Positions 8,485 through 34,840 of a DNA stretch of 34,965 nt are shown here, piece after piece. Source of the DNA: a virus; IMG/VR virus record IMGVR_UViG_3300044838_000030, positions 1-34,965 of that record. One strand, 5' to 3'. Each line of letters begins with the position of its first letter. Positions within the stretch are counted from its first letter, which is position 1. The notes beneath the pieces were generated by a model, which saw only the letters and a list, made by a program, of their open reading frames with translations, was not told the DNA's origin and ran no database searches. The position numbers were made by a program, and so were the translations under genes.

Positions 8485-8849
8485 CCAAAGACGAAGCGAC
8501 GACAACTCTGCTGCGCCTGAAGGCAGCCTGCGAGACAGCTTGTGCTGATGCCAACGCAGCAGTCCGGGAGATTCCCGAAGAGGACTTGCGCAAGGCGCGG
8601 GTTGCGCATCAGGTCCAACTCAATGGTGCGGATTCGCTGACCGCAGCCATTGCAGCCGGGCCGCTGAAGTTCCTCGACCAGGAGCACATTGCCGAAGTAG
8701 CGCGAGTGACTGCGGAAGGGGGCGACCCGATCGCCGCAGCGGGAGCCAAGCCCAAGCATGTCGCCCTGCTGGAAGCAGCGCGTGCCGCCCATGCCGACCA
8801 CGCGGATGAGCTCGCCGCTGCCTATGCCGACTTCGCCGCTGCGGACTAA
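8481..8849 (+). CDS. Ala-rich helical hypothetical protein
   Basis: A 122-residue protein starting at GTG 8481 and coupled to the previous gene by GTGA. It is almost entirely helical and Ala/Glu/Asp-rich (ATTTLLRLKAACETACADANAAV, KPKHVALLEAARAAHADHADELAAAYADFAAAD). Such proteins between structural genes may be trimerisation stalks or chaperones. No family recognised. Confidence 0.6.
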   Translation: MTKDEATTTLLRLKAACETACADANAAVREIPEEDLRKARVAHQVQLNGADSLTAAIAAGPLKFLDQEHIAEVARVTAEGGDPIAAAGAKPKHVALLEAARAAHADHADELAAAYADFAAAD

Positions 8850-8852
8850 CAC

Positions 8853-9353
8853 GTGCCCATCTACCAAGCCTGGAACGCTGCCAGTCCGACGACCGGCGCG
8901 CTTGGCCACGTCACCACGGGCTCAGGAGCCGTCAAGACGATGCTCCAGCTCGAGGATGCCACAAACGACCTGACCATCCTCGCGTGGGGCTATTCGATGG
9001 ACGGCTCGGCTCTCGCAGCCGGGATCCAGTGGTCGCTGCTGGAACAGGACGTGGCTGCCACGGTGACCGCGCATGTGATCGCCGGCATCGTCAAATGGGA
9101 CGATCCCAACGCCGTCGCCTCAGCGGTGACGCTCGGAACGGCCAACACCGGATATACGTCTTCAGGCGAGAACAGCCCGACTGTTTCACGAGTGTTCGAT
9201 TCGCAGATCACCCAACCTGGGGCTGCATACGTCTACGAGTTCAGCCTGGGTGAACGACCGAAACTGCTGCATGGACGGTTCCTCAAGTCGCGCGTTGACG
9301 TGGCTGCGGCAGCTGTGAACGCGCTCACCTTCATCCGATGGTCAACAGACTGA
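8853..9353 (+). CDS. Putative virion structural protein
   Basis: A 166-residue protein starting at GTG 8853. Beta-rich: a run of strands with Thr/Ala/Val (LTILAWGYSMDGSALAAGIQWSLLEQDVAATVTAHVIAGIVKW), a VYEFSLGERPKLLHGRFLKSRVDVA stretch near the end, and a final ALTFIRW strand. The layout suggests a compact jelly-roll or Ig-like virion protein. It belongs with the group at 7711-14229. The exact location in the particle is unknown. Confidence 0.55.
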   Translation: MPIYQAWNAASPTTGALGHVTTGSGAVKTMLQLEDATNDLTILAWGYSMDGSALAAGIQWSLLEQDVAATVTAHVIAGIVKWDDPNAVASAVTLGTANTGYTSSGENSPTVSRVFDSQITQPGAAYVYEFSLGERPKLLHGRFLKSRVDVAAAAVNALTFIRWSTD

Positions 9354-9371
9354 TGGGCGATGTGCTACCTT
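9342..9371 (+). promoter_or_regulatory. Putative promoter with extended -10
   Basis: TCAACA (9342-9347), an 18-base spacer, and TGC-TACCTT (9363-9371). The GTGCTAnnnT core is the same as at the divergent promoters near 2670 and 2706. It would give a roughly 60-base leader to the secreted-protein gene at 9441. The -35 overlaps the end of the previous gene. Confidence 0.45.
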
Positions 9372-9440
9372 GCAGCAAGAAGGGCGACCAATCAACGTGG
9401 ATCTAACCCACGGACCAGCCGCCCCGGAGGTATCTTAGCC

Positions 9441-9824
9441 ATGCGCCGTCTGCTCGCACCGCTCGCCCTTGTTGTTCTTCTTGGAGCATTCGCTGTTCCG
9501 ACCGTCCATGCCAAAGGAGTCCACGCGGCTTCGCCTGGCACCACCGCCGTCTGCACGCCGGCCAATCTCGTTCTGCCGCAAGACGAGGTGATCACCGGTT
9601 CAGGCTACAAGGCGGGCGATTTCTACACTGTTCGCTTTGCGCAGGCTGGCGCTCCCTACGGAGCCGCCGAAACTCTCGCTGATGCAAATGGCGACATCTC
9701 TGTGTCGATGACTGCCACTGGGCTTGAAACCTTCATCCCGCCTGGGCAGACCGATGTAACAGTGAACGATCAGCCTGGATCAAAACTCCGGGTGCTCGCG
9801 ACCTGCTCTTTTACTGCCTCGTAG
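9441..9824 (+). CDS. Secreted protein with Sec signal peptide
   Basis: The start is ATG 9441, with GGAGG 12 bases upstream and the signal peptide beginning exactly there: RR, then a hydrophobic core (LLAPLALVVLLGAFAVPTVHA) and a likely cleavage after VHA (about residue 24). The mature part of roughly 100 residues is beta-rich with two distant Cys (CTPANL near the start, ATCSFTAS at the end) that could form a disulphide. It looks like an Ig-like domain (ITGSGYKAGDFYTVRF, GDISVSMTATG, VTVNDQPGSKLRVLA). A secreted protein among virion genes, behind its own promoter, suggests a moron acting on the host surface or medium. Confidence 0.7.
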   Translation: MRRLLAPLALVVLLGAFAVPTVHAKGVHAASPGTTAVCTPANLVLPQDEVITGSGYKAGDFYTVRFAQAGAPYGAAETLADANGDISVSMTATGLETFIPPGQTDVTVNDQPGSKLRVLATCSFTAS

Positions 9825-9839
9825 GCATTCGTAGCGGGC

Positions 9840-10139
9840 GTGTCCACTTCGGTGTCCGCCTCGGTGGGCATGTCCGCTACCTGTGACCCGGACGTTCTAA
9901 TCGAGGCCGAAGGCGATGATTGGGTTGTGTATCGGCGCGTGACAGACGGACGCAGATGGCGGGTTGAAGGTCGGTGCGATTACCGCGGCGATTGTATGGT
10001 GGGAGCAGCCGAACCCTGGCCGCCTAAGTATCGTGAGGAGCGGCTTGATATTCCCGTGACACCGGAGTTTGGCCAGTCGTGCTGCCCCTTCACCTATGTG
10101 GAGCTGCCGCCCTGTTTCACAGGCCATCGGCCAGGATAG
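9840..10139 (+). CDS. Cys-containing hypothetical protein
   Basis: A 99-residue frame from GTG 9840 (ATG 9870 is an alternative; no clear ribosome site for either). It contains DWVVYRRVTDGRRWRVEGRCDYRGDCMVG, a typical compact beta domain, and ends with SCCPFTYVELPPCF. The last 46 bases overlap the antisense endonuclease gene tail to tail. The insertion of that gene may have altered its natural C-terminus. Confidence 0.5.
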   Translation: MSTSVSASVGMSATCDPDVLIEAEGDDWVVYRRVTDGRRWRVEGRCDYRGDCMVGAAEPWPPKYREERLDIPVTPEFGQSCCPFTYVELPPCFTGHRPG

Positions 10140-10561
10140 TACGGATGGCCCTTTCTGCCGACCTTGGCGCGGTGGTCCGCAGAGAGCGGCTTACCCTTCT
10201 TGGCTGCGTTGAGCTTGGCGATATGCGCCTGAAAGGCAGAAGAGGCGTGTGCAGCGTTGGCGAGCGCGACGCGATGCTCCTCGGACTTCGGTCTTCCCTT
10301 CGCCGCGGCACTCATCTTGGCGCGGGTCTCCGGCGACTTACTAGCGCCCTTTTGGTGGTGGCTCGTGTGCATGGCGCGGGTCATCAGTTGAAGGTTCTCC
10401 AGCCGGTTGTCAGCCCGGTCATGGTTGACGTGATGGATGAGGTGCCCTGCCGGGATGGGGCCGTTCGCTTGCTCCCACAACCATCGATGCTCAAGCCATT
10501 GTTTGCCGTCGCGATGGATCTGACGGTAGCCATTCGGAAGTACACATCCATCGCCGCGCAT
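10094..10561 (-). CDS. HNH homing endonuclease with NUMOD-like tail
   Basis: A 155-residue protein. The HNH domain spans about residues 24-70: EHRWLWEQANGPIPAGHLIHHVNHDRADNRLENLQLMT, with HH..NH.D.N.LEN as the catalytic core, then HTSHH. The C-terminal half holds repeated SPETRAKMSAAAKGR, SEEHRVALANAA and SADHRAKVG segments, like the NUMOD3 DNA-binding repeats of free-standing homing endonucleases. It lies on the opposite strand between virion genes and has its own leaderless promoter, so it is a mobile element of the homing type. No intron boundary was recognised. Confidence 0.85.
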   Translation of the reverse strand: MRGDGCVLPNGYRQIHRDGKQWLEHRWLWEQANGPIPAGHLIHHVNHDRADNRLENLQLMTRAMHTSHHQKGASKSPETRAKMSAAAKGRPKSEEHRVALANAAHASSAFQAHIAKLNAAKKGKPLSADHRAKVGRKGHPYYPGRWPVKQGGSST

Positions 10562-10576
10562 GGCCTCATTCTAGCA
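10562..10576 (-). promoter_or_regulatory. Leaderless extended -10 promoter of the endonuclease
   Basis: On the minus strand TGC (10576-10574) and TAGAAT (10573-10568) are followed by six bases and the ATG at 10561. The geometry is the same as at 2660 and 2718. It allows the homing gene to be expressed independently of the late operon. Confidence 0.5.
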
Positions 10577-10588
10577 GAGAACTACTAA

Positions 10589-11887
10589 ATGACCACCCGT
10601 CTATACCTCCATGACGGAACCACCGCTGTTGGCGGGACGTTGCCGACATCCACCAAGCTCTCGTCTTCGACTATCGCAGTGACAGCCACAGGTGCGGGAA
10701 CGAACCGGAGCATGGACCCCGGCAAAGGGGCATCGCAGGTAGCGCCTACCCTGACAAGTTCGGCAACGGTCAGCGCGCAGATCAACTGGTTTCGACGCTT
10801 CATCTCGCCGCCTCTCGCCGCCCAGACGCTGGGTTCCGTAGGCACCAGTTGGCTTGCGCAGTGGGCCGCCGTTACGGCCAGTTCCTCGATTTCGCCATGG
10901 TCAGGGGTTGTGACCTATCTCGGCGTCTGGCGACCCGGTACCGGTGCTGCGGTTGGTACTTGGATCACCACGACGAGCACAGCCCTTCCGACTGCGGCGA
11001 CAACGGCGGAAGCTCTGATGGCCGCCGCTGGCGGGAGCAGTCTCGGAACCAACACCACCATCGCCTGTGCGGAAGGGGACGTGCTTGTGGTGGAGATTGG
11101 AGGTTCGGTCACCCAAGGAATGACCACGGCTGAAACTTGGACGCTGGACTATGACGGGACGACCGATGATTCCATCACAACTTGCGCCTCATATCTGGTC
11201 AGTCCGACCACGTTGCAGTGGCTGAATCCGTATCGGCTCCAGGTCCTGAGTGGTCAGGCTTCAGCCACTTCCTTCTCGCTCGCTCCGACCGTGACGGTGG
11301 GCAATCTGATGCTCGTCGAATCCTGCACCACCGCAGCCTCGGGCACGATCACCATCTCTGACACTTCGGGGCATACTTGGACGGAGCTGACCAGCGGTGC
11401 CCCGACATATATCAAAGCTTGGTATGCGCTGGTGGTAACGGGGGGAGCCACCACCATCACAGTTACTGACGCGAGCCAGATATATATGCTCTTCGCAGAG
11501 ATTGGAGCAGGTAAGGGCGCTCCGATGATTGACGTAAGTGCAACGGGAAATGGTGTCAGTTCGGCGCCCAGTTCCGGAGCGACGCCTACGCCCGCGCTGA
11601 CTGGCGATCTGGCCGTCGCGCTCGTGGCATTCGTAGGCGCTGTTAATGAAAGCGTTGCTATAGCCTTCTCTCCAGCGCTCACGATGGACGGAGAGAAGAG
11701 CTTCACCCGAGTGCTCATGAATAGCGCTGGCAATGCGACGGTCGCCGAAACGGCGGCCATGACCCTGACCGGTTCGGGGACTTGGGCTTGCTGGTGTCTC
11801 CTCATTGGAAATACCCCACCACCCTCCGCCTATCTCCCCAAGCCCTTGATCCACAACCAAGCAATCCAGCGGGCGAGCAATTATTGA
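10589..11887 (+). CDS. Putative tail fibre or surface structural protein
   Basis: A 432-residue protein beginning at ATG 10589. Strongly Thr/Ser/Ala/Gly-rich with beta strands throughout. The N-terminal part (TTRLYLHDGTTAVGG...NWFRRFISPPLAAQTL...VVTYLGVWRPGTGA) resembles the start of phage baseplate or fibre proteins. The second half (SFSLAPTVTVGNLMLV, ISDTSGHTWTEL, YALVVTGGATTITVTDASQIYMLFAEI) looks like one or more jelly-roll or carbohydrate-binding-like modules. It precedes the repeat protein and is probably part of the same fibre structure. A receptor-binding role is inference. Confidence 0.6.
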   Translation: MTTRLYLHDGTTAVGGTLPTSTKLSSSTIAVTATGAGTNRSMDPGKGASQVAPTLTSSATVSAQINWFRRFISPPLAAQTLGSVGTSWLAQWAAVTASSSISPWSGVVTYLGVWRPGTGAAVGTWITTTSTALPTAATTAEALMAAAGGSSLGTNTTIACAEGDVLVVEIGGSVTQGMTTAETWTLDYDGTTDDSITTCASYLVSPTTLQWLNPYRLQVLSGQASATSFSLAPTVTVGNLMLVESCTTAASGTITISDTSGHTWTELTSGAPTYIKAWYALVVTGGATTITVTDASQIYMLFAEIGAGKGAPMIDVSATGNGVSSAPSSGATPTPALTGDLAVALVAFVGAVNESVAIAFSPALTMDGEKSFTRVLMNSAGNATVAETAAMTLTGSGTWACWCLLIGNTPPPSAYLPKPLIHNQAIQRASNY

Positions 11888-11919
11888 GGGCAATCACCGC
11901 CTAGCCCGAATCTAGCCTT

Positions 11920-13872
11920 GTGGCCAGACTGGGTAGGGCGACACCCCAGCGCCACCCGCAGCAACTCCTCCCCCTCTTTGGCGCGGTCGGCGGCACCCAG
12001 GCGCTCACCAGCACGGCTGCGACGGCCACCGCCGCCAGCGCCTCCCTGCTGGCAGCTCAGGCCGTCTCCTCCGCCGGCGCAGGGATTACTGGGAGTAGCG
12101 CCAACCTCAGCGGCGTCCAGGCAGTAACTTCGATTGCGGCCGCAGTCACGTCTGCCGTCGCCACCCTCAAAGCAGCCCAAGCCCTCGCCTCCACGGCAGC
12201 GGCGACCACTACCGCATTGGCGAGCGTCACTGCTGCTGATGCGCTCTCTTCTAGCGCAGCCGCAACCACAGCCGCGAGCGCCACTCTAATCGCAGCCGAC
12301 AAGCTGTCCTCGACTGGAGCCGCGGCTACGGCATCTATTGCGACGCTCTCCGCACAAGAGGCGCTGATCAGCACGGCGGCGACCGTCACAGCCGCTTCCG
12401 CCGCACTCACCGAAATCGTCTTGAGTGCGCTGACCTCGACGGCAGCGAGCACCACCGCAGCTAGTGCCTCGCTCCTGAGTCAGGGCGCGCTCACTTCGAC
12501 CGGTGCCGGGATCTCGGCTGCGAGCGCGGCATTGGTCGAGAAAGGCGGGCTCTCCTCGGTTGGAGCGAGCGCGACTGCATCCAGCGCAGCCTTACTGGCG
12601 GCGCAGGTGTTGTCGTCAGTGGCTGCTGGGACGACGGCTGCTTCTGCAGCGCTTACATATGTCCTCGCACTCGTTTCCACGGCCAGCAGCGCTACAGCGG
12701 CGTCCGGCACCTTGATTCAGGCAGCAGCGCTGACATCAACTGCATCTGGCACGACGGCAGCGAATGCGAGCCTCACCGCCGCACAGGCGCTGAGTTCGCC
12801 GGCCGCGTCCATCAGCGCCGCATCGGCATCACTCAGCGCAGCGCAGGCGTTGATCTCTACGGGCGCGGGCATCTCGGGCGCATCAGCTTCCTTGCTGGTC
12901 GCTCAGGTGCTCATATCGACGGGAGTCGCTCTCTCTGCGGCATCAGCATCGCTGCGAGAAGCAGCAGCCCTTACTTCTACGGCAGCGGGTATGACATCAG
13001 CGTCGGCGACCATCAGCGGCGGCTCAGGGAGCGCTCTTTCTTCCACTGCGGCCTCCGTCTCCGCCGCCTCAGCATCTTTGCTGGAAGCCGCCGCGCTGAC
13101 GAGTACAGCAAGCACGGCTAGCTCGTCATCGGCACAGCTGCTCGAGCAGGCACGTCTTACATCGACCGCCGCCGGCCTCACGGCCGCCAGTGCATCCCTC
13201 AGCGCGGTGCAGGCACTCACGTCTACGGCTGCAGGTGCGACGGCCGCGTCCGCGTCTCTCCTGGCCGCCCAAGTCCTGCAAAGCACTGCAGCAGGCGCTA
13301 CGGCATCAAGCGCTGCTCTGCTGGCCAAGCAAGCGTTGCTCAGCACGGGTGCAGCCCTTACTGGAGCCAGCGCGACCATCTCAGCCGGGGTCAGTCAACT
13401 ATCCAGCACCGCAGCGGGTATCTCAGGGGCTTCGGCCAATCTCACGGCCAAAGATGTCCTGGCATCGACAGCCGCTGCTGCGAGCAGCTCGAGCGCTGTG
13501 TTTGTAGAGCTTGGCACGCTGAGTTCGACGGCCTCAGGATCGACCAGCAGCAGCGGCGTGCTCAAAGCCGGCCTGGCGATCACCAGCAGTGCCAGGGGTA
13601 TCACCGCAGCGGTTGCGATTCTCAGCGCCGCCCTGCCCGGCAGTTTGAGCAGCACAGCGCCGGCGATCACGGGCGGAACACTGACGTGGTGGCCGCTCCT
13701 GCTCGCCACTGGCACCGATCGAACCGCCGCATCCGCAGCCTTGGATGGATTCGTGGTTCTGGCGACGTCTGGTAACGCCAACGCAGCCACGACCAGCTCG
13801 GATGCGACCAATAGCAGCACGCCCAAGGACGCATTGGTGACGACGGCCAGCCCTGCTGATTCCCTCGCCTAG
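11920..13872 (+). CDS. Giant Ser/Thr/Ala-rich repeat protein, putative fibre
   Basis: A 650-residue protein starting at GTG 11920, with no clear ribosome site. From residue 28 to about 575 it consists of roughly 27 tandem repeats of 20 residues, consensus [AV]L[ST]STAAGxTAASASLxAAQ, with conserved Leu at positions 2 and 16 and small residues elsewhere. There are almost no charged and no aromatic residues. Four units carry 1-3 residue insertions. A short non-repeat C-terminus (LTWWPLLLATGTDRTAASAALDGFVVLA...) may be a cap or trimerisation end. The regular spacing suggests a beta-solenoid or a fibrous trimer. It is also an obvious candidate acceptor for O-glycosylation. The ends carry AGGGCAAYC elements. 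Confidence 0.75.
   Translation: MARLGRATPQRHPQQLLPLFGAVGGTQALTSTAATATAASASLLAAQAVSSAGAGITGSSANLSGVQAVTSIAAAVTSAVATLKAAQALASTAAATTTALASVTAADALSSSAAATTAASATLIAADKLSSTGAAATASIATLSAQEALISTAATVTAASAALTEIVLSALTSTAASTTAASASLLSQGALTSTGAGISAASAALVEKGGLSSVGASATASSAALLAAQVLSSVAAGTTAASAALTYVLALVSTASSATAASGTLIQAAALTSTASGTTAANASLTAAQALSSPAASISAASASLSAAQALISTGAGISGASASLLVAQVLISTGVALSAASASLREAAALTSTAAGMTSASATISGGSGSALSSTAASVSAASASLLEAAALTSTASTASSSSAQLLEQARLTSTAAGLTAASASLSAVQALTSTAAGATAASASLLAAQVLQSTAAGATASSAALLAKQALLSTGAALTGASATISAGVSQLSSTAAGISGASANLTAKDVLASTAAAASSSSAVFVELGTLSSTASGSTSSSGVLKAGLAITSSARGITAAVAILSAALPGSLSSTAPAITGGTLTWWPLLLATGTDRTAASAALDGFVVLATSGNANAATTSSDATNSSTPKDALVTTASPADSLA
12001..13644 (+). 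repeat. About 27 coding repeats of 60 bases
   Basis: Each unit encodes 20 residues with the pattern L-S/T-S-T-A-A/G...T-A-A-S-A-S-L. At DNA level the units are well diverged, with different codons for the same residues, so they are old or under selection at protein level rather than fresh duplications. Insertions occur in the units ending near 12426, 13032, 13395 and 13644. Confidence 0.8.
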
Positions 13873-13893: not shown

Positions 13894-14229
13894 ATGTCGA
13901 TCGAAATGGCGAACTGCTACGACGTGGGGAGTTTGGTGCGGACTTCAGAGACGTTCACCAGCCTCGCAACCGGGCTCCCAGCAGATCCCGCCACAGTCAA
14001 ATTGATGTGGCAGATCGTCCCTAACGGCCAGGGTTCACCGGGTGCCACCACCACCTGGACGTACCTGGGCGCAGGGTCGATCGTCAAGGACGGAACCGGC
14101 CTCTACCATGCCGACCTGGACACCACCGCGCTGCCCGGCCAGTGGCAGGGAGCATGGGTCTGCCCTCCCGGCTCAGGTCAGACCGCGGTGGACTGGATCT
14201 TCGTGGTTTTACCGAGCCCGGTGCATTGA
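13894..14229 (+). CDS. Phage structural protein, small beta domain
   Basis: A 111-residue protein starting at ATG 13894 (ATG 13906 is possible). It shows the pattern of a common small phage domain: YDVGSLVRTSETF...GLPADPATVKLMWQIVPNG, then TTTWTYLGAGSIVKDGTGLYHADLDTTALPGQWQGAWV, then WIFVVLPSP. DP-x-TV, DGTGLYHADLDTT and PG-x-W are the typical landmarks. It follows the repeat protein and is likely a virion or fibre-associated domain. The function of the family is not established to my knowledge. Confidence 0.6.
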   Translation: MSIEMANCYDVGSLVRTSETFTSLATGLPADPATVKLMWQIVPNGQGSPGATTTWTYLGAGSIVKDGTGLYHADLDTTALPGQWQGAWVCPPGSGQTAVDWIFVVLPSPVH

Positions 14230-14308: not shown

Positions 14309-14749
14309 ATGAAGACCTGCCCCATCCACGCTACTATCCTCAGCCCCAAGCAGCACTGCCCACGTTGCCCACCCCGCAGCTTCAGTGGCGAAGGTCTACA
14401 GAGTAGGCACTCCACCGCATGGCGTCGGTACAGCCAGCGCACCCTCTCTGCCCGCCCCCTCTGTGAGCACCACCTTGCACAGGGGGTGGTAGTGCCTAGC
14501 ACCGAGGTCCACCACCTCGTGGACCGTGCTGACGGCGGTGAACTGTTCCCTGGTGACGATGGCGTTGTGGCCCTGTGCAAGCCTTGTCATGCGAAAGAAA
14601 CGCGAGCCAAGCAAATCGAGAATTCGAGTTCGGATTCGCGAAGGGGGGGAGGGTCTGTCGCGCAAAAAAAGAAAATTTCCTGCGCGCCCGTGGCCCTAGA
14701 CGCAAGTGAAACCGACATTCGGACGCCGCTTTGGCCATTCGTCGCGTAA
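14309..14749 (+). CDS. HNH endonuclease next to the terminase
   Basis: A 146-residue protein. N-terminal CP(x)H...CPRCP forms a zinc knuckle. The HNH core follows: STAWRRYSQRTLSARPLCEHHLAQG, then TEVHHLVDRADGGELFPGDDGVVALCKPCHAKETR, with VHH, the DN-equivalent DDG and the final CKPCH. HNH proteins beside the large terminase are usual in HK97-like phages and are needed with the terminase for cos cleavage and DNA packaging in several of them. The last 40 residues are low-complexity and cross a peculiar A-tract (14659-14686). The end overlaps the terminase start by 19 bases. Confidence 0.85.
   Translation: MKTCPIHATILSPKQHCPRCPPRSFSGEGLQSRHSTAWRRYSQRTLSARPLCEHHLAQGVVVPSTEVHHLVDRADGGELFPGDDGVVALCKPCHAKETRAKQIENSSSDSRRGGGSVAQKKKISCAPVALDASETDIRTPLWPFVA
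14659..14686. other. A-tract flanked by an inverted repeat
   Basis: CGCGCA (14659-14664) and TGCGCG (14681-14686) bracket a 16-base AT-rich core containing A6-G-A4-T3. In a GC-rich phage this is striking and lies just upstream of the terminase start. It could be a bent-DNA protein site, a packaging-initiation element or an mRNA structure controlling the terminase. It also falls in the non-conserved tail of the HNH gene. Confidence 0.4.
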
Positions 14750-16718: not shown

Positions 16719-18220
16719 TGGCCAATGCCTTCTATCGCGCCCTCGGGCGTCTGACCGGCTCTTCGCAGCGGAGCGATCCGTTCGCGCAGGTTCCTTTCGG
16801 GCAGTGGCTGAGTGAGTTCATCTACAACGGCTCGGCCTACCCCTTCGCGATCAATCAGTCGATCCAGGGCAACAAGGAGAACGTCCCCCACAACTTCGTC
16901 TCTTATACGTCGGCGATGTACAAGAGCAACGGGGCGGTATTCGCGGTGGAGCTGTCGCGCCTGCTGCTGTTCAGCGAGGCGCGCTTCCAATATCAGCACA
17001 TCCGTAATGGCCGACCGACCGATCTGTGGGGCGACCGCGACCATGAGGACTATCGGGACGAATGCAGATCACGCGACGAGAAGCCGAGCCGATCGCTTCA
17101 GATCCTAGAGACGCCCTGGTCCGGTGCCACCACTGGCGATCTCCTGGCTCGAGCCATGCAGGATGCTGATCTCTCGGGCAATTTCTACGGCGTACGTCGC
17201 AATGACCAGATCAAGCGTCTGCGCCCCGACTGGACGAGCATCCTGCTGGGAACCAACGGCGAGAGCATCAGCGAGGCGCAACTGGCGTTGCCTGGAGATG
17301 TCGACGCTGAGCCGATCGCCTACCTCTACCAACCAGGGGGACATGCTTCGGGTCGGCCGATCGAGACCTTCCTGCCCGAGGATGTCGTTCACTTCGCCCC
17401 GATCCCTGACCCCTTGGCGACGTTTCGGGGGATGTCCTGGCTGACGCCGATCATCCGCGAGATCATGGCGGACTCGGCGGCGACGTCGCACAAGCTCGCG
17501 TTCTTCGAGAACGGCGCCACTGCCAACATGATCGTCTCTCTCGACCCGTCGATCCAGAAGGCCGCCTTCGACGCGTGGGTCAAGACCTTCCGCATGGAGC
17601 ACGAGGGGCTGGCGAACGCCTACAAGACCATATACTTGGGCGGCGGGGCCAAGGTGGACGTAGTCGGTGCCGACATGAAGCAGATGGACTTCAAGACAGT
17701 CCAAGGCGCCGGGGAAACGAGGATCGCCGCCGCCGGTAGAGTCCCCCCGATCATCGCTGGACTCTCCGAAGGGCTGGAGGCCGCCACCTACGCCAACTAC
17801 GGACAGGCGCGGCGGGCCTTCGCCGATTTGTTCGCACGCCCTGCCTGGCGCAATTTCGCGGGTTCGCTCGAACGCATTCTTCCGCCTCCCGGTGGTTCGC
17901 GCCTTTGGTATGACGACCGCGACATCTCCTTCCTTCAAGAGAACCGCAAGGACGCTGCGGACATCCTTTTGGTGAAAGCTCAGGCGATCTCGGCGTTGTT
18001 TATGGCCGGATATGACCCCGACTCGATTATCACTGCTGTGGAAGGTGAGGATCTCACGCAACTCGAGCACACAGGCGTGCCATCCGTGCAGGTGCAGCCA
18101 ACCGTTGGCACGGCTCCCACTGCACGGCCTGCCTTGCCCGCACCGAAGCCCAGCAACGGCAAGGTCGCATCTGCGCGAATCTTGGCACCGTGGCTGCCTG
18201 GAGAACGCAATGACAGCTGA
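16718..18220 (+). CDS. Portal protein, HK97 type
   Basis: A 500-residue protein, within the usual range. Landmarks of phage portals: SYTSAMYKSNGAVFAVELSRLLLFSEARF, the wing part RSLQILETPWSGATTGDLLARAMQDADLSGNFYGVR, FLPEDVVHFAPIPDP...FRGMSWLTPI, the clip/stem stretch HKLAFFENGATANMIVSL, and ETRIAAAGRVPPIIAGLSEGLEAATYANYGQARRAFADLF. It forms the dodecameric DNA gate at one capsid vertex and docks the terminase. The C-terminus is Pro/Ala-rich and disordered. It overlaps the protease start by 11 bases. Confidence 0.92.
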   Translation: MANAFYRALGRLTGSSQRSDPFAQVPFGQWLSEFIYNGSAYPFAINQSIQGNKENVPHNFVSYTSAMYKSNGAVFAVELSRLLLFSEARFQYQHIRNGRPTDLWGDRDHEDYRDECRSRDEKPSRSLQILETPWSGATTGDLLARAMQDADLSGNFYGVRRNDQIKRLRPDWTSILLGTNGESISEAQLALPGDVDAEPIAYLYQPGGHASGRPIETFLPEDVVHFAPIPDPLATFRGMSWLTPIIREIMADSAATSHKLAFFENGATANMIVSLDPSIQKAAFDAWVKTFRMEHEGLANAYKTIYLGGGAKVDVVGADMKQMDFKTVQGAGETRIAAAGRVPPIIAGLSEGLEAATYANYGQARRAFADLFARPAWRNFAGSLERILPPPGGSRLWYDDRDISFLQENRKDAADILLVKAQAISALFMAGYDPDSIITAVEGEDLTQLEHTGVPSVQVQPTVGTAPTARPALPAPKPSNGKVASARILAPWLPGERNDS

Positions 18221-20687
18221 CGCAACCGCCGCAACCGCGAACCTGGGACGAGCCAAGTGGGACCCAGACGGCGACGGAGACGACGACTCCACCCCCGAAG
18301 GCGATACCGACAACTCTCACTGGGACAGCGGCGGCAAGCCCATCCTCGCTGCTTGGATGGCGGCCGGCAAGACGCCGCCAGTGATGCACCCCGAGAACGC
18401 GTCAGAACCTGACGGCGAGACCCGTGATCGTCTGCCGCGGGAAGACCTGGTCCGCGCGATTTCGGGCTGTGAGGTCCGAGACGCGCCCGCCGGCGACCCC
18501 AGCCCGGGGACGATGACCGGCCATCTCGCGGTCTTCAACCAGTGGTCAGAGATCAGCTCGATCCATGAAGGCCACTTCATGGAACGACTCGCTCCAGGCG
18601 CCTTCGACAAGACGCTCGAGGGCAAATCGCGGATGAAGGTCACCTTCAACCACGGCAAGGACCCGCATCTCGGTGACAAGGTGCTGGGAATCCCGACGGT
18701 GCTTGAGCCCGACGACCATGGCGTCAAGTACGAAGTCCCGCTTTTTGACACCGAGTACAACCGTGAACTCGCCCCCGGACTTAAAGCGGGCGCCTATGGG
18801 TCGAGTTTCCGTTTCAATGTCGTCCACGACGACTTCAACAAGCGCGCGAAGGTGTCCGACTACAACCCCAAGGGCTTGCCGGAGCGGACGCTCACTGAAG
18901 TCAATATGCAGGAGTTCGGCCCGGTCACGTTCCCGGCCTACCCCGGCGCCACGTCAGGGATGCGCTCACTGACTGACAAGTTCGTGCTCGGACGTTTCCT
19001 CGAGGACCCGGGCAAACTCGCACCTCTCGTAGATTCAATCGTTGACGGTTCTCAACACTCCGACACAAGCCGCGGTACTCAGTCCGCACTTGCTCCTGCG
19101 GAGCCGAAACAGGCCGTAGAGACCCAGCCGAAGCCACGGCGCCTCAAGCCTGTGGAACCACCTAAAACAGACATCAGCAGGAGCAAACCGATGACCAAGG
19201 ATGAGCGGCGCGACCGCATCACCGAACTCGAGACCTGGATTCGAGACACCAACGAGTCCTATCAAGACGACGCCATGCCAGACGAAGTCCGTCTGGACTG
19301 GGACAAGAACAACGACGAGCTCGATCAGCACCGCAAGGTAGTGGCCGAGCTCGAGGCGCGCGACAAGCGCGTCGCCGAACTGGCCGCGATCGCGGTGCGC
19401 AACGGCTCCGCAGAGGCGGGGACGTCGTTCGAGACGCGCGTCAACCGCGGGACCTTCCAGCAGATCAACCGGATGAGCGAAGGCGAGGTCTACGATCTTG
19501 AGTCTCTCACCCGCTCCAGCTTCATGAACCCGGAGCAGCTCAATCGCGAGATTACGGACCGGGCCAAGCGCGCCGTTGAGATGTCCCGGTTCCCGCATGA
19601 GCGGGCGAATCTGGAGTTCACGCAGGGGCACATTGAGGATCTGCTCAACTACTCCGACGGCCCCGGCTACCTCGGTCACCCCGAGATCGCCCGACGTATC
19701 CTAGTGACTGGCGGCCCGCGCTATCATCGGGCCTTCCACAAGTACCTCGCCAACCAGTCCCGGACTCCTGACGAAGAGCGCGCATTGTCGCTCGGCGCGG
19801 GCGCCTCGGGTGGGTTCCAGGTGGTCTACCAGCTGGACCCGACAATCATCCCGACCTCGAACCTCTCGGTGAACCCTTACCGTGAGATCGCCAACGTCGA
19901 GACCATCACGGGCACCAACGAATGGCGCGGTGTGACCTCGACGGGCGTCACCGCCTCGTACGGCTCAGAAGGACAGGAAGCAACCGACGGCACGCCGGCG
20001 CTGCTTCAGCCCGCCATCGTCGTGCAGACCGCGAACGTGTTCATTCCCTTCAGCATCCAGTATGGGCAGGACGTCGGCAACGTCGAGGGCCAGATGGCCG
20101 GCCTCATCCAGGACGCCAAGGACGACCTGGAAGCGGTCCAGTTCACCACCGGCCTCGGGACAGGCGTTGTCCCGCAGGGCGTCGTCGTGGGCGCGACCAC
20201 CACAGTCAGCACGGCCTCCGGCGGAACGTTCGCCATCGCTGATGTGTACGCAATGGAGAATGCGCTGGGCCCGCGTTTCCGGCCTCGCGCCTCGTGGGTG
20301 ATGAACCGCACCCTCTACAACCTGATCCGCGCATTCGACACCGCTGGCGGTGCTGGAATGTGGATCGGCTATCCGAATCCTCTGCAGGGTGGGATGCAAA
20401 ACAACGTCCCGCGCTCGGGGCGGCTGGGCATCAACCTGCTCGCGTACCCGACCTACGAGTGCTCGGCGGTCGACACTGCGATCACCACGACCCATCTCGA
20501 TGGGATCTTGGGCGACTTCTCGTATTACAAGATCATCGACCGGCTTGGCCTCGACATCGAGATCGCCCCGATGCTGTTCGGCGCCGCCAACAGGTTCCCG
20601 ACTGGCCAGCGTGGCTTGTACGCCTATTGGCGCAACAGCGCGAAGGTCTTGGCTGCCAGCGCGTTCCGCGTCCTCAAGATTCAGTAA
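18210..20687 (+). CDS. Prohead protease-major capsid protein fusion
   Basis: An 825-residue protein; start ATG 18210, preceded by GGAGAA. Residues 15-45 are very acidic (DPDGDGDDD, EF-hand-like). Residues about 100-255 are an HK97-type prohead protease: GHLAVFNQWSEI, His148 in TFNHG, Ser198/199 in YGSSFRF, and LTEVNMQEFGPVTFPAYPG. A Pro/Lys-rich linker (290-325) leads to a scaffold-like coiled coil (330-395), then an HK97-fold capsid protein (about 415-825: NPYREIANVETITG, YGSEGQEATDG, FIPFSIQYGQDV, FRPRASWVMNRTLYN, GLYAYWRNSAKV). An internal start at 19191 could give the capsid protein alone. The protease would cut itself and the scaffold away during maturation. Confidence 0.9.
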   Translation: MTADATAATANLGRAKWDPDGDGDDDSTPEGDTDNSHWDSGGKPILAAWMAAGKTPPVMHPENASEPDGETRDRLPREDLVRAISGCEVRDAPAGDPSPGTMTGHLAVFNQWSEISSIHEGHFMERLAPGAFDKTLEGKSRMKVTFNHGKDPHLGDKVLGIPTVLEPDDHGVKYEVPLFDTEYNRELAPGLKAGAYGSSFRFNVVHDDFNKRAKVSDYNPKGLPERTLTEVNMQEFGPVTFPAYPGATSGMRSLTDKFVLGRFLEDPGKLAPLVDSIVDGSQHSDTSRGTQSALAPAEPKQAVETQPKPRRLKPVEPPKTDISRSKPMTKDERRDRITELETWIRDTNESYQDDAMPDEVRLDWDKNNDELDQHRKVVAELEARDKRVAELAAIAVRNGSAEAGTSFETRVNRGTFQQINRMSEGEVYDLESLTRSSFMNPEQLNREITDRAKRAVEMSRFPHERANLEFTQGHIEDLLNYSDGPGYLGHPEIARRILVTGGPRYHRAFHKYLANQSRTPDEERALSLGAGASGGFQVVYQLDPTIIPTSNLSVNPYREIANVETITGTNEWRGVTSTGVTASYGSEGQEATDGTPALLQPAIVVQTANVFIPFSIQYGQDVGNVEGQMAGLIQDAKDDLEAVQFTTGLGTGVVPQGVVVGATTTVSTASGGTFAIADVYAMENALGPRFRPRASWVMNRTLYNLIRAFDTAGGAGMWIGYPNPLQGGMQNNVPRSGRLGINLLAYPTYECSAVDTAITTTHLDGILGDFSYYKIIDRLGLDIEIAPMLFGAANRFPTGQRGLYAYWRNSAKVLAASAFRVLKIQ
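19179..19193 (+). promoter_or_regulatory. Internal ribosome binding site before the capsid part
   Basis: AGGAG (19179-19183), seven bases, then ATG (19191) in frame with the fusion. This sits exactly in the linker between protease and scaffold/capsid domains. Use of it would yield a 498-residue capsid precursor in excess over the protease fusion. Confidence 0.6.
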
Positions 20688-24298: not shown

Positions 24299-24868
24299 GT
24301 GCGCGTTGTGGCGCGATTGCCAACGATTAGCTGCGTGATCCCCCACCTCCCGGAGCGTGACCCGGCACTCTACGCAGAAGCCATCGCCTCAGTGCGCGGC
24401 CAGACGCGGCTGCCCGATCAGTTGATCGTCGAGAGCGATCCCAACCACACCGGCTGCGCGGCCACGCTCAACCGTGCTCTCGAGCGGGTGGAGTGCGAAT
24501 GGATTGCGGTGCTCGGTGACGACGACTACCTTCTCCCCAATCATCTCGCTGTCCTCGAAGCCCACCTCGCGGCCGACGTGCTTTATCCGGACTTCCTCCA
24601 GCTCGGCGCCTTCCACGGCATCGGTGGCCCCTTCGACGAGACACGGCTGCGCGATGCCAACTACATCCCTGGTGGAGGGTCGCTGATCCGCACCGCTGCA
24701 GCTCGGATGGTGGGCGGCTGGTGCCGTCGCGATGATCCCGACTGGCATCAGTTCGAGGACTGGGTCATGTGGCTGCGTCTGCTCGACGCCGGCTGCTCGT
24801 TTGAGCACGTTCCGGTGACGACTTGGGCCTACCGGTTCGGAGATCACCAGACGGGCGGTCAGGTGTGA
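24299..24868 (+). CDS. Family 2 glycosyltransferase
   Basis: A 189-residue protein starting at GTG 24299. GT-A fold marks: TISCVIPHLPERDPALYAEAIASVRGQT (first strand and helix), QLIVESDPN, WIAVLGDDDYLLPNH with the metal-binding DDD (74-76), and the C-terminal acceptor-site pair ED in HQFEDWVMWLRL (153-154), followed by VTTWAYRFGDHQTG. It would transfer a sugar from a nucleotide-sugar donor. It is coupled to the zinc-ribbon gene and, through it, to the family 4-like glycosyltransferase. Confidence 0.85.
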   Translation: MRVVARLPTISCVIPHLPERDPALYAEAIASVRGQTRLPDQLIVESDPNHTGCAATLNRALERVECEWIAVLGDDDYLLPNHLAVLEAHLAADVLYPDFLQLGAFHGIGGPFDETRLRDANYIPGGGSLIRTAAARMVGGWCRRDDPDWHQFEDWVMWLRLLDAGCSFEHVPVTTWAYRFGDHQTGGQV

Positions 24869-25104
24869 TGGGCCAGTGGCTGCGTCCGCATCGCGGCCCA
24901 TCGACGCGTCTTTCCAAATATGCCTATGCGCTCAACGCGCTCGGTGAGGTGATCTGCCCTGGGTGTGGGCTGCACATGCCCATCCGTGTCGGCGGGACGC
25001 AACCGCTGATCTACTGCTCTGATCGTTGCAAGCAGAGGGTCTTCCTCCAAGGCGGTCGGCTGACACGCTCCGCTGTGCGCGAGATCATCGCGGCGATGGC
25101 GTGA
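24868..25104 (+). CDS. Zinc-ribbon protein between glycosyltransferases
   Basis: A 78-residue protein; ATG 24868 shares a base with the previous stop. A clear four-Cys ribbon: CPGCGLHMPIRVGGTQPLIYCSDRCKQRVF, the pattern often seen in small phage DNA-binding ribbons (CxxCG...YCSxxC). Basic residues precede it (RPHRGPSTRLSKYAYALNALG) and a helix follows (TRSAVREIIAAM). It overlaps the next start by GTGA. Why a ribbon sits between two sugar-transfer enzymes is unclear. Confidence 0.65.
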   Translation: MGQWLRPHRGPSTRLSKYAYALNALGEVICPGCGLHMPIRVGGTQPLIYCSDRCKQRVFLQGGRLTRSAVREIIAAMA

Positions 25105-26291
25105 AGGTCGCCATCTGGCCGAGCGATTCTGGTGGCTGCGGATGGGTGCGTCTGCGTTGGCCGGCGGCCGAGCTCGCACGTCAGGGTTATGACGTCGAGG
25201 TTCGCGAGAATATCGACGCTGTCTGGCAGAAGGGCGAGAACGGCGAACCCGATCGTGTGGTCGATCTGCTTGAGACGGACTTCGACGTCGCGGTCCTGCA
25301 GCGGATGTACCGCCCTGAGATGCTGGCCTTCATGCGGCTGCTACAGAAGCGCGGGGTCGCGGTGGCCATCGACATCGACGACGACCTGATGGCCATCGGC
25401 CCCGAGCATCCGAGTTACCCCTACCTGCAACCAGCCTGGGAGATCCTCCGTCAGGCGTATCGCGAAGCTGACATGGTCACCGTCAGTACTTCTGCGCTGG
25501 CCAAACGCTACGGAAGCCATGGCCGGGTCAGGGTGGTCCCCAACGGCGTGCCACGGGCATATCTCGGGATCACGAAGGAAGATGCACCCCCGGGTCAGAC
25601 GTTCATTCGAGAGGCCGCTCGCAGCCGGGAGAGCCTAGGGTCATCCAGCCACCGCTTGCGCGCCACGGGGGTTCCAGAATCATACATGCGACAGGTGCCT
25701 GTCGTCGGCTGGACAGGGGTGGCCCGTTACCACCCCGGCGACCTCGAGGAGGTTGGCACGTCGGTGGCTGACGTCGTGCGCTCAGGAGCGGCGAAGTTCC
25801 GGGCCATTGGCGGCGAGGAACCACTGGACCTGCTCGGCGTTTCGGGGCAGTGGCATCCCGGAGCACCCCTGCAGGACTATGCCTACGCCCGTCTCTATGC
25901 GGAGTTGGATGTGGCGATCGTGCCTCTGCAGCACTGCCGCTTCAACGCCGGCAAGTCCTGGCTCAAAGGGCTCGAGGCTGCAGCGCTCGGCGTTCCTTTT
26001 GTGGCCAGCCCGACGCCGGAGTACGTCCGCCTCCACGAGCTCGGAGCTGGTGTCCTCGCCGAGACACCCAAGGAGTGGCGACACGAACTGGGCCGGCTGG
26101 CCGGCTCTGCTGATCTACGGGCAGAGCTGGCCGCTAAGGGTCGCGAGGTGGCTGCGAGGCTGACCATCGAGCAGATGCAAGCTCCATTGCTGTGGGAGGC
26201 ATGGGCGGCTGCTGACGGTAGGCGACGGCCTGCAAGAGCTCACGGTGGCGAAGCTCAGCGCGCTTGTTCTTCCGCGAGCCTCGTCGGATGA
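25101..26291 (+). CDS. Glycosyltransferase, GT4-like (GT-B fold)
   Basis: A 396-residue frame starting at GTG 25101, which overlaps the previous stop. The N-terminal Rossmann half has KVAIWPSDSGGCGWVRLRWPAAELARQGYDV and VAIDIDDDLMAI; the linker has DMVTVSTSALAKRYG and VRVVPNGV. The donor-binding half has VPVVGWTGVARY and FNAGKSWLKGLEAAALGVPFVASPTPEYV (281-309), the usual E-rich nucleotide-sugar site of GT4 enzymes. Natural homology seems to end near LLWEAWAA (about 26210); the last 25 residues look random and overlap the antisense membrane gene. Confidence 0.8.
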   Translation: MKVAIWPSDSGGCGWVRLRWPAAELARQGYDVEVRENIDAVWQKGENGEPDRVVDLLETDFDVAVLQRMYRPEMLAFMRLLQKRGVAVAIDIDDDLMAIGPEHPSYPYLQPAWEILRQAYREADMVTVSTSALAKRYGSHGRVRVVPNGVPRAYLGITKEDAPPGQTFIREAARSRESLGSSSHRLRATGVPESYMRQVPVVGWTGVARYHPGDLEEVGTSVADVVRSGAAKFRAIGGEEPLDLLGVSGQWHPGAPLQDYAYARLYAELDVAIVPLQHCRFNAGKSWLKGLEAAALGVPFVASPTPEYVRLHELGAGVLAETPKEWRHELGRLAGSADLRAELAAKGREVAARLTIEQMQAPLLWEAWAAADGRRRPARAHGGEAQRACSSASLVG

Positions 26292-32808: not shown

Positions 32809-33968
32809 TGCCGGGCAGCGGAAACGTCTCGGCGAGCGCACGCTATCTCGCGGCACTCCCGCTCTCGCACCAGATCGCCACACTCGCCGAAGTCTGGGCG
32901 GGTGAAGTCCTGCAGGCAACGCTCGTGGTCGAGGACTCCAGCAGCGTGACGGTGGATCGCAACAATGTCATCAGGAGCACCTGCTCAGCGGTGCTCACCG
33001 ACCCCTACGCAGGGACGCCGCAGGCGATCGTGCCTTCCACTGCGCAGGGATTCCTGAATCCCTACGGCAACGAGCTAGTGCTCTATCGCGGGATCACCTT
33101 CAGCGACGCGACGCAGGAGTTGATCCAGTTGGGAGTCTTCGGCCTCGAAGGTGTGGACATCGACGACGGTGCCAACGACCTCGTGATCACCCTGACCGGA
33201 GGAGATCGAGGGGTGGCCTGTCAGCACGCGGGGTTCCCTGACGTCTACACGATCCCACCGGGCACCAATGTCGGGGCGGCGATCCAGACCCTGATCGCAT
33301 CGCTGCAGACCGGGTTGACGATCACCTATGCGTTCGCCGCGACGTCAGCCGTGACCCCGACTACGCCGATCGTCTACAACATCGGCACTGACCCCTGGTC
33401 GTCAGCCTGTGACCTGGCCGCGTCGATCGGCTACGAGCTGTTCTTCGATCCCGCTGGGGTCTGTACCTTCCTGCCGGTCCCGAACCCGCTCTCCCAGCCG
33501 ATCTCGATGACCTATGTCGAGGGTGTCGGGAATACCGCCGTCCACCTCAAGCGAACCATCTCGCGGACCAACGCGCCCAACTACATCATCAGGGACGGGC
33601 AGGGGTCGGGAATCGCCACCCCGGTGCGGGGGATCGCGCAGGACACCAACCCGACCTCCCCGACCTACGTGGGCGGTTCGTATGGGGTGCAGCGCGACTA
33701 CAACTCCTCGAGCCTCTACACCGACCAACCCACCGCCCAAGCTGCAGCGGATGCAGACCTCCTGCTGGCACTGGGGACCATCGAGTCGCTCGAGGTGCAG
33801 GCAGTGCCCAAGGACGACACCCATGTGGACGACGTCGTCTCCGTCACCCGTGCGCGATCCGGCCTGACCGCGCAGCTCTATGTGATCGACAGCTTTCAAC
33901 TCGGCTTCGGGACGGGCGGCATCCTCGACTTCACTGCGCGTCAGATCGGGAGTTTCCCCGCGCCGTGA
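32808..33968 (+). CDS. Minor tail protein, DUF5047-like hub component
   Basis: A 386-residue protein; ATG 32808 shares a base with the previous stop. N-terminal ATLVVEDSSSVTVDRNNVIRSTCSAVLTDPYAG, then LYRGITFSDATQELIQLGVFGLEGVDIDDGANDLVITLTGGDRG, match the architecture of actinophage minor tail proteins of the DUF5047 type, a gp27-like hub. The rest includes SACDLAASIGYELFFDPAGVCTFLPVPNP and VKRTISRTNAPNYIIRDGQ, also usual. It would form the ring between distal tail protein and fibre. The family name is from memory of the pattern. Confidence 0.7.
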   Translation: MPGSGNVSASARYLAALPLSHQIATLAEVWAGEVLQATLVVEDSSSVTVDRNNVIRSTCSAVLTDPYAGTPQAIVPSTAQGFLNPYGNELVLYRGITFSDATQELIQLGVFGLEGVDIDDGANDLVITLTGGDRGVACQHAGFPDVYTIPPGTNVGAAIQTLIASLQTGLTITYAFAATSAVTPTTPIVYNIGTDPWSSACDLAASIGYELFFDPAGVCTFLPVPNPLSQPISMTYVEGVGNTAVHLKRTISRTNAPNYIIRDGQGSGIATPVRGIAQDTNPTSPTYVGGSYGVQRDYNSSSLYTDQPTAQAAADADLLLALGTIESLEVQAVPKDDTHVDDVVSVTRARSGLTAQLYVIDSFQLGFGTGGILDFTARQIGSFPAP

Positions 33969-34840
33969 GCCTCATGCCTGTGTACGACCCCAACGCCACC
34001 GGGCCTCCGGCACCAGCCGGCGCAACCTCGAGCGACCTCGCAGCAGCCATCGCGGACACCCCCTCTCCACCCGCTGGCGCGTCCTCCGGGTTGGTGACCG
34101 TGGCGATGCAGTGGGGTGCAGTGGTGTCCATTCAGGCCGGCCCGCCCCAGACCTTGACGTTGACTCTGGCCGGAAGTCCGACCCCGATCCCGGGCGTGAA
34201 GTACATGGCGAACTACTCTCCCAACATCGGGGACACGGTGATCATCTGGAGCGTGGGAACGGATCTCGTGGTAGCCGGTGGACTCTCGGGGGTGGTGGCT
34301 TCAGAAGGTCCGATCGTCGGCGACATCCTGATGACTACGAAGAACAAGACCGATCTCGCGTGGCTGCTCTGCAACGGCGGGACTTTCAGCGCAGTCACCT
34401 ATCCGGCGCTCAACACCTACCTCGGAAGCACGACGTTGCCGAATCTGACGAACTTCATCCCGATGGGCGCCGGATCGACCGTTGCGCTGGGGGCGACTGC
34501 AGGGTCTACGACATCGGCAGGGCTTCTCGCCCACGTCCACGGGTCCGGCGGCGGCCACACTCACACCAGTGCGGCGCACGTCCACGGCTCCGGGGGACCG
34601 CATACCCACACTTACAACACCGGGAGCCTCACCGCCGGATTCGGGTCAGGGGGTCTCTCCGCTGACAACTCCAACCCCAGTACCAGCACAGGTTCCACCG
34701 ATCCCGGCAACACCGCGAGTACCACACCCGGAGCGAGCGGCAGCACCGATCCCGGCAACACCGCGAGTGCTGGAGCGGGGAGCTCGTTCAGCGTCCTGAA
34801 CCCGGTTATGGGGGTCTACTGGTGGATCAGGGCACTCTAG
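33965..34840 (+). CDS. Tail fibre with collar domain and HxH motifs
   Basis: A 291-residue protein from GTG 33965 (ATG 33974 possible). The N-terminal ~110 residues are an OB-like or adaptor part (VTVAMQWGAVVSIQAGPPQTLTLTLAG...NIGDTVIIWSVGTDLVVAGGL). Then comes the phage collar domain: GDILMTTKNKTDLAWLLCNGGTFSAVTYPALNTYLGSTTLPNLTNFIPMGAGS. After that lie four His-x-His motifs (HVHGSGGGHTHTSAAHVHGSGGPHTHT), as in T4 gp12-type fibres that bind a metal inside a trimer. The C-terminus is Ser/Thr/Gly-rich with two copies of GSTDPGNTAS and ends NPVMGVYWWIRAL, the family's usual end. Confidence 0.85.
   Translation: MSLMPVYDPNATGPPAPAGATSSDLAAAIADTPSPPAGASSGLVTVAMQWGAVVSIQAGPPQTLTLTLAGSPTPIPGVKYMANYSPNIGDTVIIWSVGTDLVVAGGLSGVVASEGPIVGDILMTTKNKTDLAWLLCNGGTFSAVTYPALNTYLGSTTLPNLTNFIPMGAGSTVALGATAGSTTSAGLLAHVHGSGGGHTHTSAAHVHGSGGPHTHTYNTGSLTAGFGSGGLSADNSNPSTSTGSTDPGNTASTTPGASGSTDPGNTASAGAGSSFSVLNPVMGVYWWIRAL

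Follow-up and report, generated by a model that had tools for sequence, protein, structure and literature searches.

Two described protein architectures come closest to the tandem repeat analysed here. Right-handed parallel β-helices (β-solenoids), represented by pectate lyases, FHA, Ag43 and the tail fibre of phage 7-7-1, are built from stacked rungs. Triple β-spiral shafts, such as those of the adenovirus fibre and reovirus sigma1, consist of short strand-turn-strand β-repeats with hydrophobic alternation, in which three chains are intertwined; their units usually vary in length, and phage fibres are commonly trimeric. The window studied here is the whole of IMG/VR virus record IMGVR_UViG_3300044838_000030 (34,965 bases), and one of its genes encodes a protein made almost entirely of 20-residue repeats. 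Its likeness to the β-helices lies in the two-strand, 20-residue rungs that are stacked in an AF2 model (Z 8–12 over the matches named below), whereas there is no sequence relation between them and the model could be an artefact. With the triple β-spirals it has the short, alternating β-type repeats in common, but its unit is nearly constant at 20 residues. We consider the chance about even that this protein is a virion-surface stalk or spacer, forming a β-rod within a host-contact module.

The repeat protein and its gene neighbourhood

The gene set of the window is that of a siphovirus-like tailed phage (Table 1), for which no close relative was found in the phage collection searched. The repeat ORF lies in a neighbourhood of virion genes, the location given by the original prediction, which had been made from the DNA letters and their open reading frames. 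Its start codon is GTG, and no clear or convincing ribosome-binding site was found in front of it, so the exact start is uncertain; long antisense ORFs overlap the gene.

Table 1. Features of the window referred to in the text
Feature	Position	Strand	Remarks
Possible second HNH-like ORF	10094-10561	-	
432-aa Ser/Thr/Ala-rich protein	10589-11887	+	directly upstream of array gene
Repeat protein ORF	11920-13872	+	650 aa, ~59 kDa, pI 5.8, no Cys
N-terminal leader	11920-12003	+	28 aa, ahead of array
27 tandem 20-residue units	12004-13644	+	consensus LxSTAAGxTAASASLxAAQA
Degenerate 28th unit	13645-13704	+	ends TWWPLLL
C-terminal tail	13705-13869	+	55 aa, Ser/Thr/Asn/Asp-rich
111-aa partner protein	13894-14229	+	Ig-like AF2 model; directly downstream of array gene
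HNH endonuclease gene	14309-14749		directly 5' of terminase
Terminase	14731		
Portal	16718		
Fused protease-capsid	18012-20687		891-aa ORF; Peptidase_S78 head-maturation protease and major capsid protein, spectrin-like stretch in between
Head closure	23707		
Two glycosyltransferase genes	24299-26291		GT2-like, GT1-like
Tail terminator	26583		
Tail tube	27365		
Tape measure	28490		
DUF5047 tail protein	32370		
Tail-collar/fibre gene	33965-34840		

The array comprises 27 units and one degenerate copy, in line with the roughly 27 tandem repeats counted originally. The unit spacing is exactly 20 residues in 23 of the 27 and 21–22 in the remainder (counted with the border between units 6 and 7 shifted by one residue). 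Autocorrelation of the protein reached 0.46 at lag 20 and 0.41 at lag 40, and the best lag-20 value in 2000 composition-preserving shuffles was 0.26; the period of 20 is far above chance. Ser and Thr together account for 33% of residues (about 6.7 per 20) and Pro for only 0.7%. Two details of the original description need correction: the Leu residues stand at positions 1 and 15 of the consensus given there, not at 2 and 16, and the array is not free of aromatic residues, as Y247 and F528 fall within it. Profile searches of the protein against Pfam and PHROGs returned no family up to E = 1, which agrees with the earlier statement that no family was known to have exactly this pattern.

The DNA copies are diverged, as had been noted before. 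Mean identity between units was 46% for protein and 48% for DNA, did not decay with the distance between units, and Tandem Repeats Finder detected no array in the DNA. The median dN between units was 0.64 vs a median dS of 1.68 (near saturation), and the third codon position was the most variable among the units (entropy 1.81 vs 1.08 and 1.02). Because the units are diverged without distance decay and the median dN is well below dS, the array is old and has been kept at the protein level by purifying selection; it is not a recent DNA expansion.

Each unit consists of a 15-residue core and a 5-residue loop, with the register L-x-[G/S]-x-A...A-x-[G/A]-x-L in the core, which the window array fits as L1, G/S/A3, A5, A/G13 and L15. 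Leu, Ala and Ser each keep to particular positions of the unit, and positions 5–7 are mostly small residues (chiefly A, G and S). Among the window units alone, the odd core positions (1, 3, 5 ... 15) were better conserved than the even ones (mean entropy 0.77 vs 1.72, permutation p = 0.0046), as is expected of strands with one buried face. Furthermore, 18 of the 19 D/E/K/R residues occupy loop positions 16–20 (p = 9e-11). Together, the odd-position conservation and the loop charges suggest an ordered β-structure, independently of any model. The corresponding between-contig entropy comparison is not counted as evidence, the units having been pre-filtered on positions 1, 3, 5, 6, 13 and 15.

Occurrence of the repeat in other phages

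The original prediction had treated the pattern as unique and proposed a search of viral metagenomes. Such a search found the same 20-residue register in no fewer than seven further contigs of IMG/VR phages (L003, L004, L008, L009, L010, L011 and L016), all but the last recovered by degenerate DNA patterns, and a short case of two units in L006. The arrays of the relatives align to the window block without internal gaps of their own. A profile built from the relatives' alignment (A3) matched L016, which had been reached independently via a different gene, at E 4.7e-7, and shuffled and reversed versions of L016 scored far lower; when the window protein is reversed, it still obtains a score with this profile (46 bits), since the motif is close to a palindrome. 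The likeness, established by pattern and profile, thus consists of a shared register and motif. Position 3 is mostly Gly in the other phages, compared with Ser in the window, and their arrays are mostly fused to larger domains, whereas the window array makes up nearly the whole protein. Several further searches were empty: tblastn of the repeat protein against the phage collection (where repeats of this kind may be masked by the low-complexity filter of BLAST), the related-locus search with the raw repeat protein, and the window-type DNA pattern in the genome contigs (0 matches); the L009 protein had no confirmed relative in the genome contigs either. The arrays of the relatives match no Pfam or PHROGs family. 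The repeat is not unique to the window phage and goes unnamed in both databases.

The L003 gene lies beside baseplate genes, and its product has seven units ahead of a phrog_52 tail-protein domain. The 387-aa homologue from phiKX1 starts without these N-terminal units; the L003 array is thus an add-on N-terminus of a virion protein, a baseplate hub. This fusion is the only direct tie between the repeat and a virion protein. L008 has an ORF of 1535 aa (8677-13281) in which about 60 units follow some 245 N-terminal residues. Neither this large N-terminal region nor that of the L009 protein had a meaningful match in Pfam or PHROGs, and a LamG-like label for them would be no more than an impression.

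The neighbouring 111-aa and 432-aa proteins

Relatives of the 111-aa protein were found in six other contigs (L012–L017), and a further search added a seventh. The motif KDGTGLYH is invariant in seven aligned relatives, and the AF2 model of the protein is Ig-like (pLDDT 78, best Foldseek E 0.0017); the family is present in neither Pfam nor PHROGs. In three relatives the 111-aa gene is preceded at a short distance by a gene with tandem repeats of 18–21 residues, directly in L016 (period 20) and L013 (21) and with one gene between in L015 (18); a short-period repeat gene near the Ig-like gene is thus a recurring arrangement. No repeat gene was found upstream of the 111-aa relatives of L014 and L031 in the sequence covered, and L017 was borderline. 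The L015 gene (5817-7262) encodes a 482-aa protein with 18-residue SITPAGAL repeats (lag-18 identity up to 0.55). These resemble the window array in being tandem repeats, of the form LxGx...GxL, encoded ahead of a homologue of the 111-aa protein (in L015 by two genes), but differ in their period, a Lys-containing linker and the lack of a match to the A3 profile.

Residues 225-293 of the 432-aa protein showed weak similarity (hhalign prob 24%, E 8e-4) to a domain that stands ahead of the repeats in L006, L013 and L016, a weak indication that this domain may be shared. A relation of the 111-aa family to the short neighbouring proteins of L004 and L009 was tested for and dropped (hhalign prob < 5%).

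Predicted fold of the array

The original prediction had suggested a β-solenoid or a trimeric fibre and proposed AlphaFold as a check. Using units 9-16 together with the in-register alignment of the relatives (A3) as input, AF2 predicted for the monomer a solenoid with two strands per unit and a mean pLDDT of 76.7; this was the only one of five models above pLDDT 70, the other four ranging from 53 to 68. In VIA-align, right-handed β-helices were nearest to the model (Z 10–12), and a chain of the phage 7-7-1 tail fibre matched with Z 8.4. Foldseek gave no match in the PDB at E < 0.001; in BFVD, several uncharacterised proteins of uncultured phages matched, among them A0A6J5L2B1 (prob 1.00, TM 0.76, E 0.012). 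Searching the PDB sequences with the repeat revealed no relative of solved structure and no relevant shaft match, an absence that is compatible with a triple β-spiral.

The solenoid suggestion thus stood in part. AF2 built β-solenoids for 36 of 50 random 20-residue repeats (PMC11795689), and since most random repeats of this length give solenoids, too, the model is weak evidence. For families with diverged repeats the prediction methods agreed (PMC11795689); the diverged units of the array would therefore help the case for a solenoid and do not settle it. We infer a solenoid fold from the model at this strength. The length of several tens of nm that had been put forward does not hold for such a fold: 27 rungs at about 0.48 nm amount to about 13 nm, and the structure would be longer only as an extended trimeric shaft.

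Function and alternative explanations

For a stalk or spacer, the 15-residue core would form two β-strands with a turn of small residues between them (L-x-S-x-A / AG / x-T-x-A-x-A-x-L); the 5-residue loop carries nearly all charged residues. Units stacked head to tail would give a rigid β-rod, most simply a β-solenoid of the length given above, with an interior packed with Leu, Ala, Ser and Gly. The rod would be passive, without a catalytic role, and would set the distance from the particle for the host-contact domains of the same module, i.e., the 432-aa protein and the Ig-like 111-aa partner. Gene context suggests that the repeat protein is present in this virion, where it would act as a spacer or in adsorption, and a role in adhesion is plausible. 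Since a separate tail-collar/fibre gene is present in the window, the array need not be the receptor-binding device.

The main rival to a stalk solenoid is a trimeric fibre shaft of the triple β-spiral type, which would be longer. The alternation of Leu-x-small with Gly or small-residue turns, the fibre-like genes in the surroundings and the usual trimeric state of phage fibres speak for it, as may the units of L009, which we take to resemble adenovirus shaft repeats and regard as a lead. Given the near-invariant unit length and the lack of a sequence match to solved structures, we nevertheless consider this shaft rather unlikely. We judge it very improbable that the ORF is open through biased composition, either unexpressed or serving some role outside the virion; this would accord with the lack of a clear ribosome-binding site and with the antisense ORFs, but a median dN below dS, the codon-position entropies and the recurrence of the protein motif in unrelated phages, including the baseplate hub fusion, argue against it. 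Even less probable is an amyloid- or silk-like repeat that assembles by itself into fibrils or a sheath in the manner of curli or FapC, for which small-residue β-repeats would be suitable: fibrils of FapC and CsgA were indeed among the weak fold matches, but with Foldseek E-values of just 0.66 and 5.3.

The density of Ser and Thr, in a tandem repeat rich in both, would also fit a mucin-like, flexible, O-glycosylated linker decorated by the phage's own two glycosyltransferases, which are encoded within the virion gene cluster. Virion glycosylation is on record for mycobacteriophage Che8 (as cited in PMC11256854), the target reported there being the capsid. However, the protein is not Pro-rich, and the positional fixation of Leu, Ala and Ser is unlike mucin repeats. 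The glycosyltransferase genes are some 10 kb away from the array and are flanked by the head-closure and tail-terminator genes. Among 13 records carrying the repeat or the 111-aa gene, most of them fragments, a GT2 match occurred in one, namely the contig of L017, which is without the 20-residue repeat, and the second glycosyltransferase had no match in any of these mostly fragmentary records. This survey weakens the link between array and glycosylation, within the limited weight that fragments allow, and the glycosylated adhesion fibre proposed originally finds no support here; we regard the mucin-like linker as improbable. Since the glycosyltransferase genes sit amid head-closure and tail-terminator genes, some virion protein may be glycosylated, the capsid being the likeliest candidate.

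Significance

Beyond the stalk or spacer of this one phage, we tentatively suggest, while considering it somewhat doubtful, that the 20-residue motif may represent a new class of structural repeats in phages, namely a tight Ser/Ala/Leu β-rod used as a modular spacer on hubs and other surface proteins across unrelated phages, whose length would depend on the number of copies (4 to about 60 units). This would put a name to a structural module of phage virions that has gone unlabelled so far, occurs in several unrelated uncultured phages and is absent from Pfam and PHROGs. If the array is a β-rod, copy number would offer a simple handle on stalk length, and the small-residue core could serve as a design scaffold as well as a natural test case for the solenoid bias of AlphaFold.
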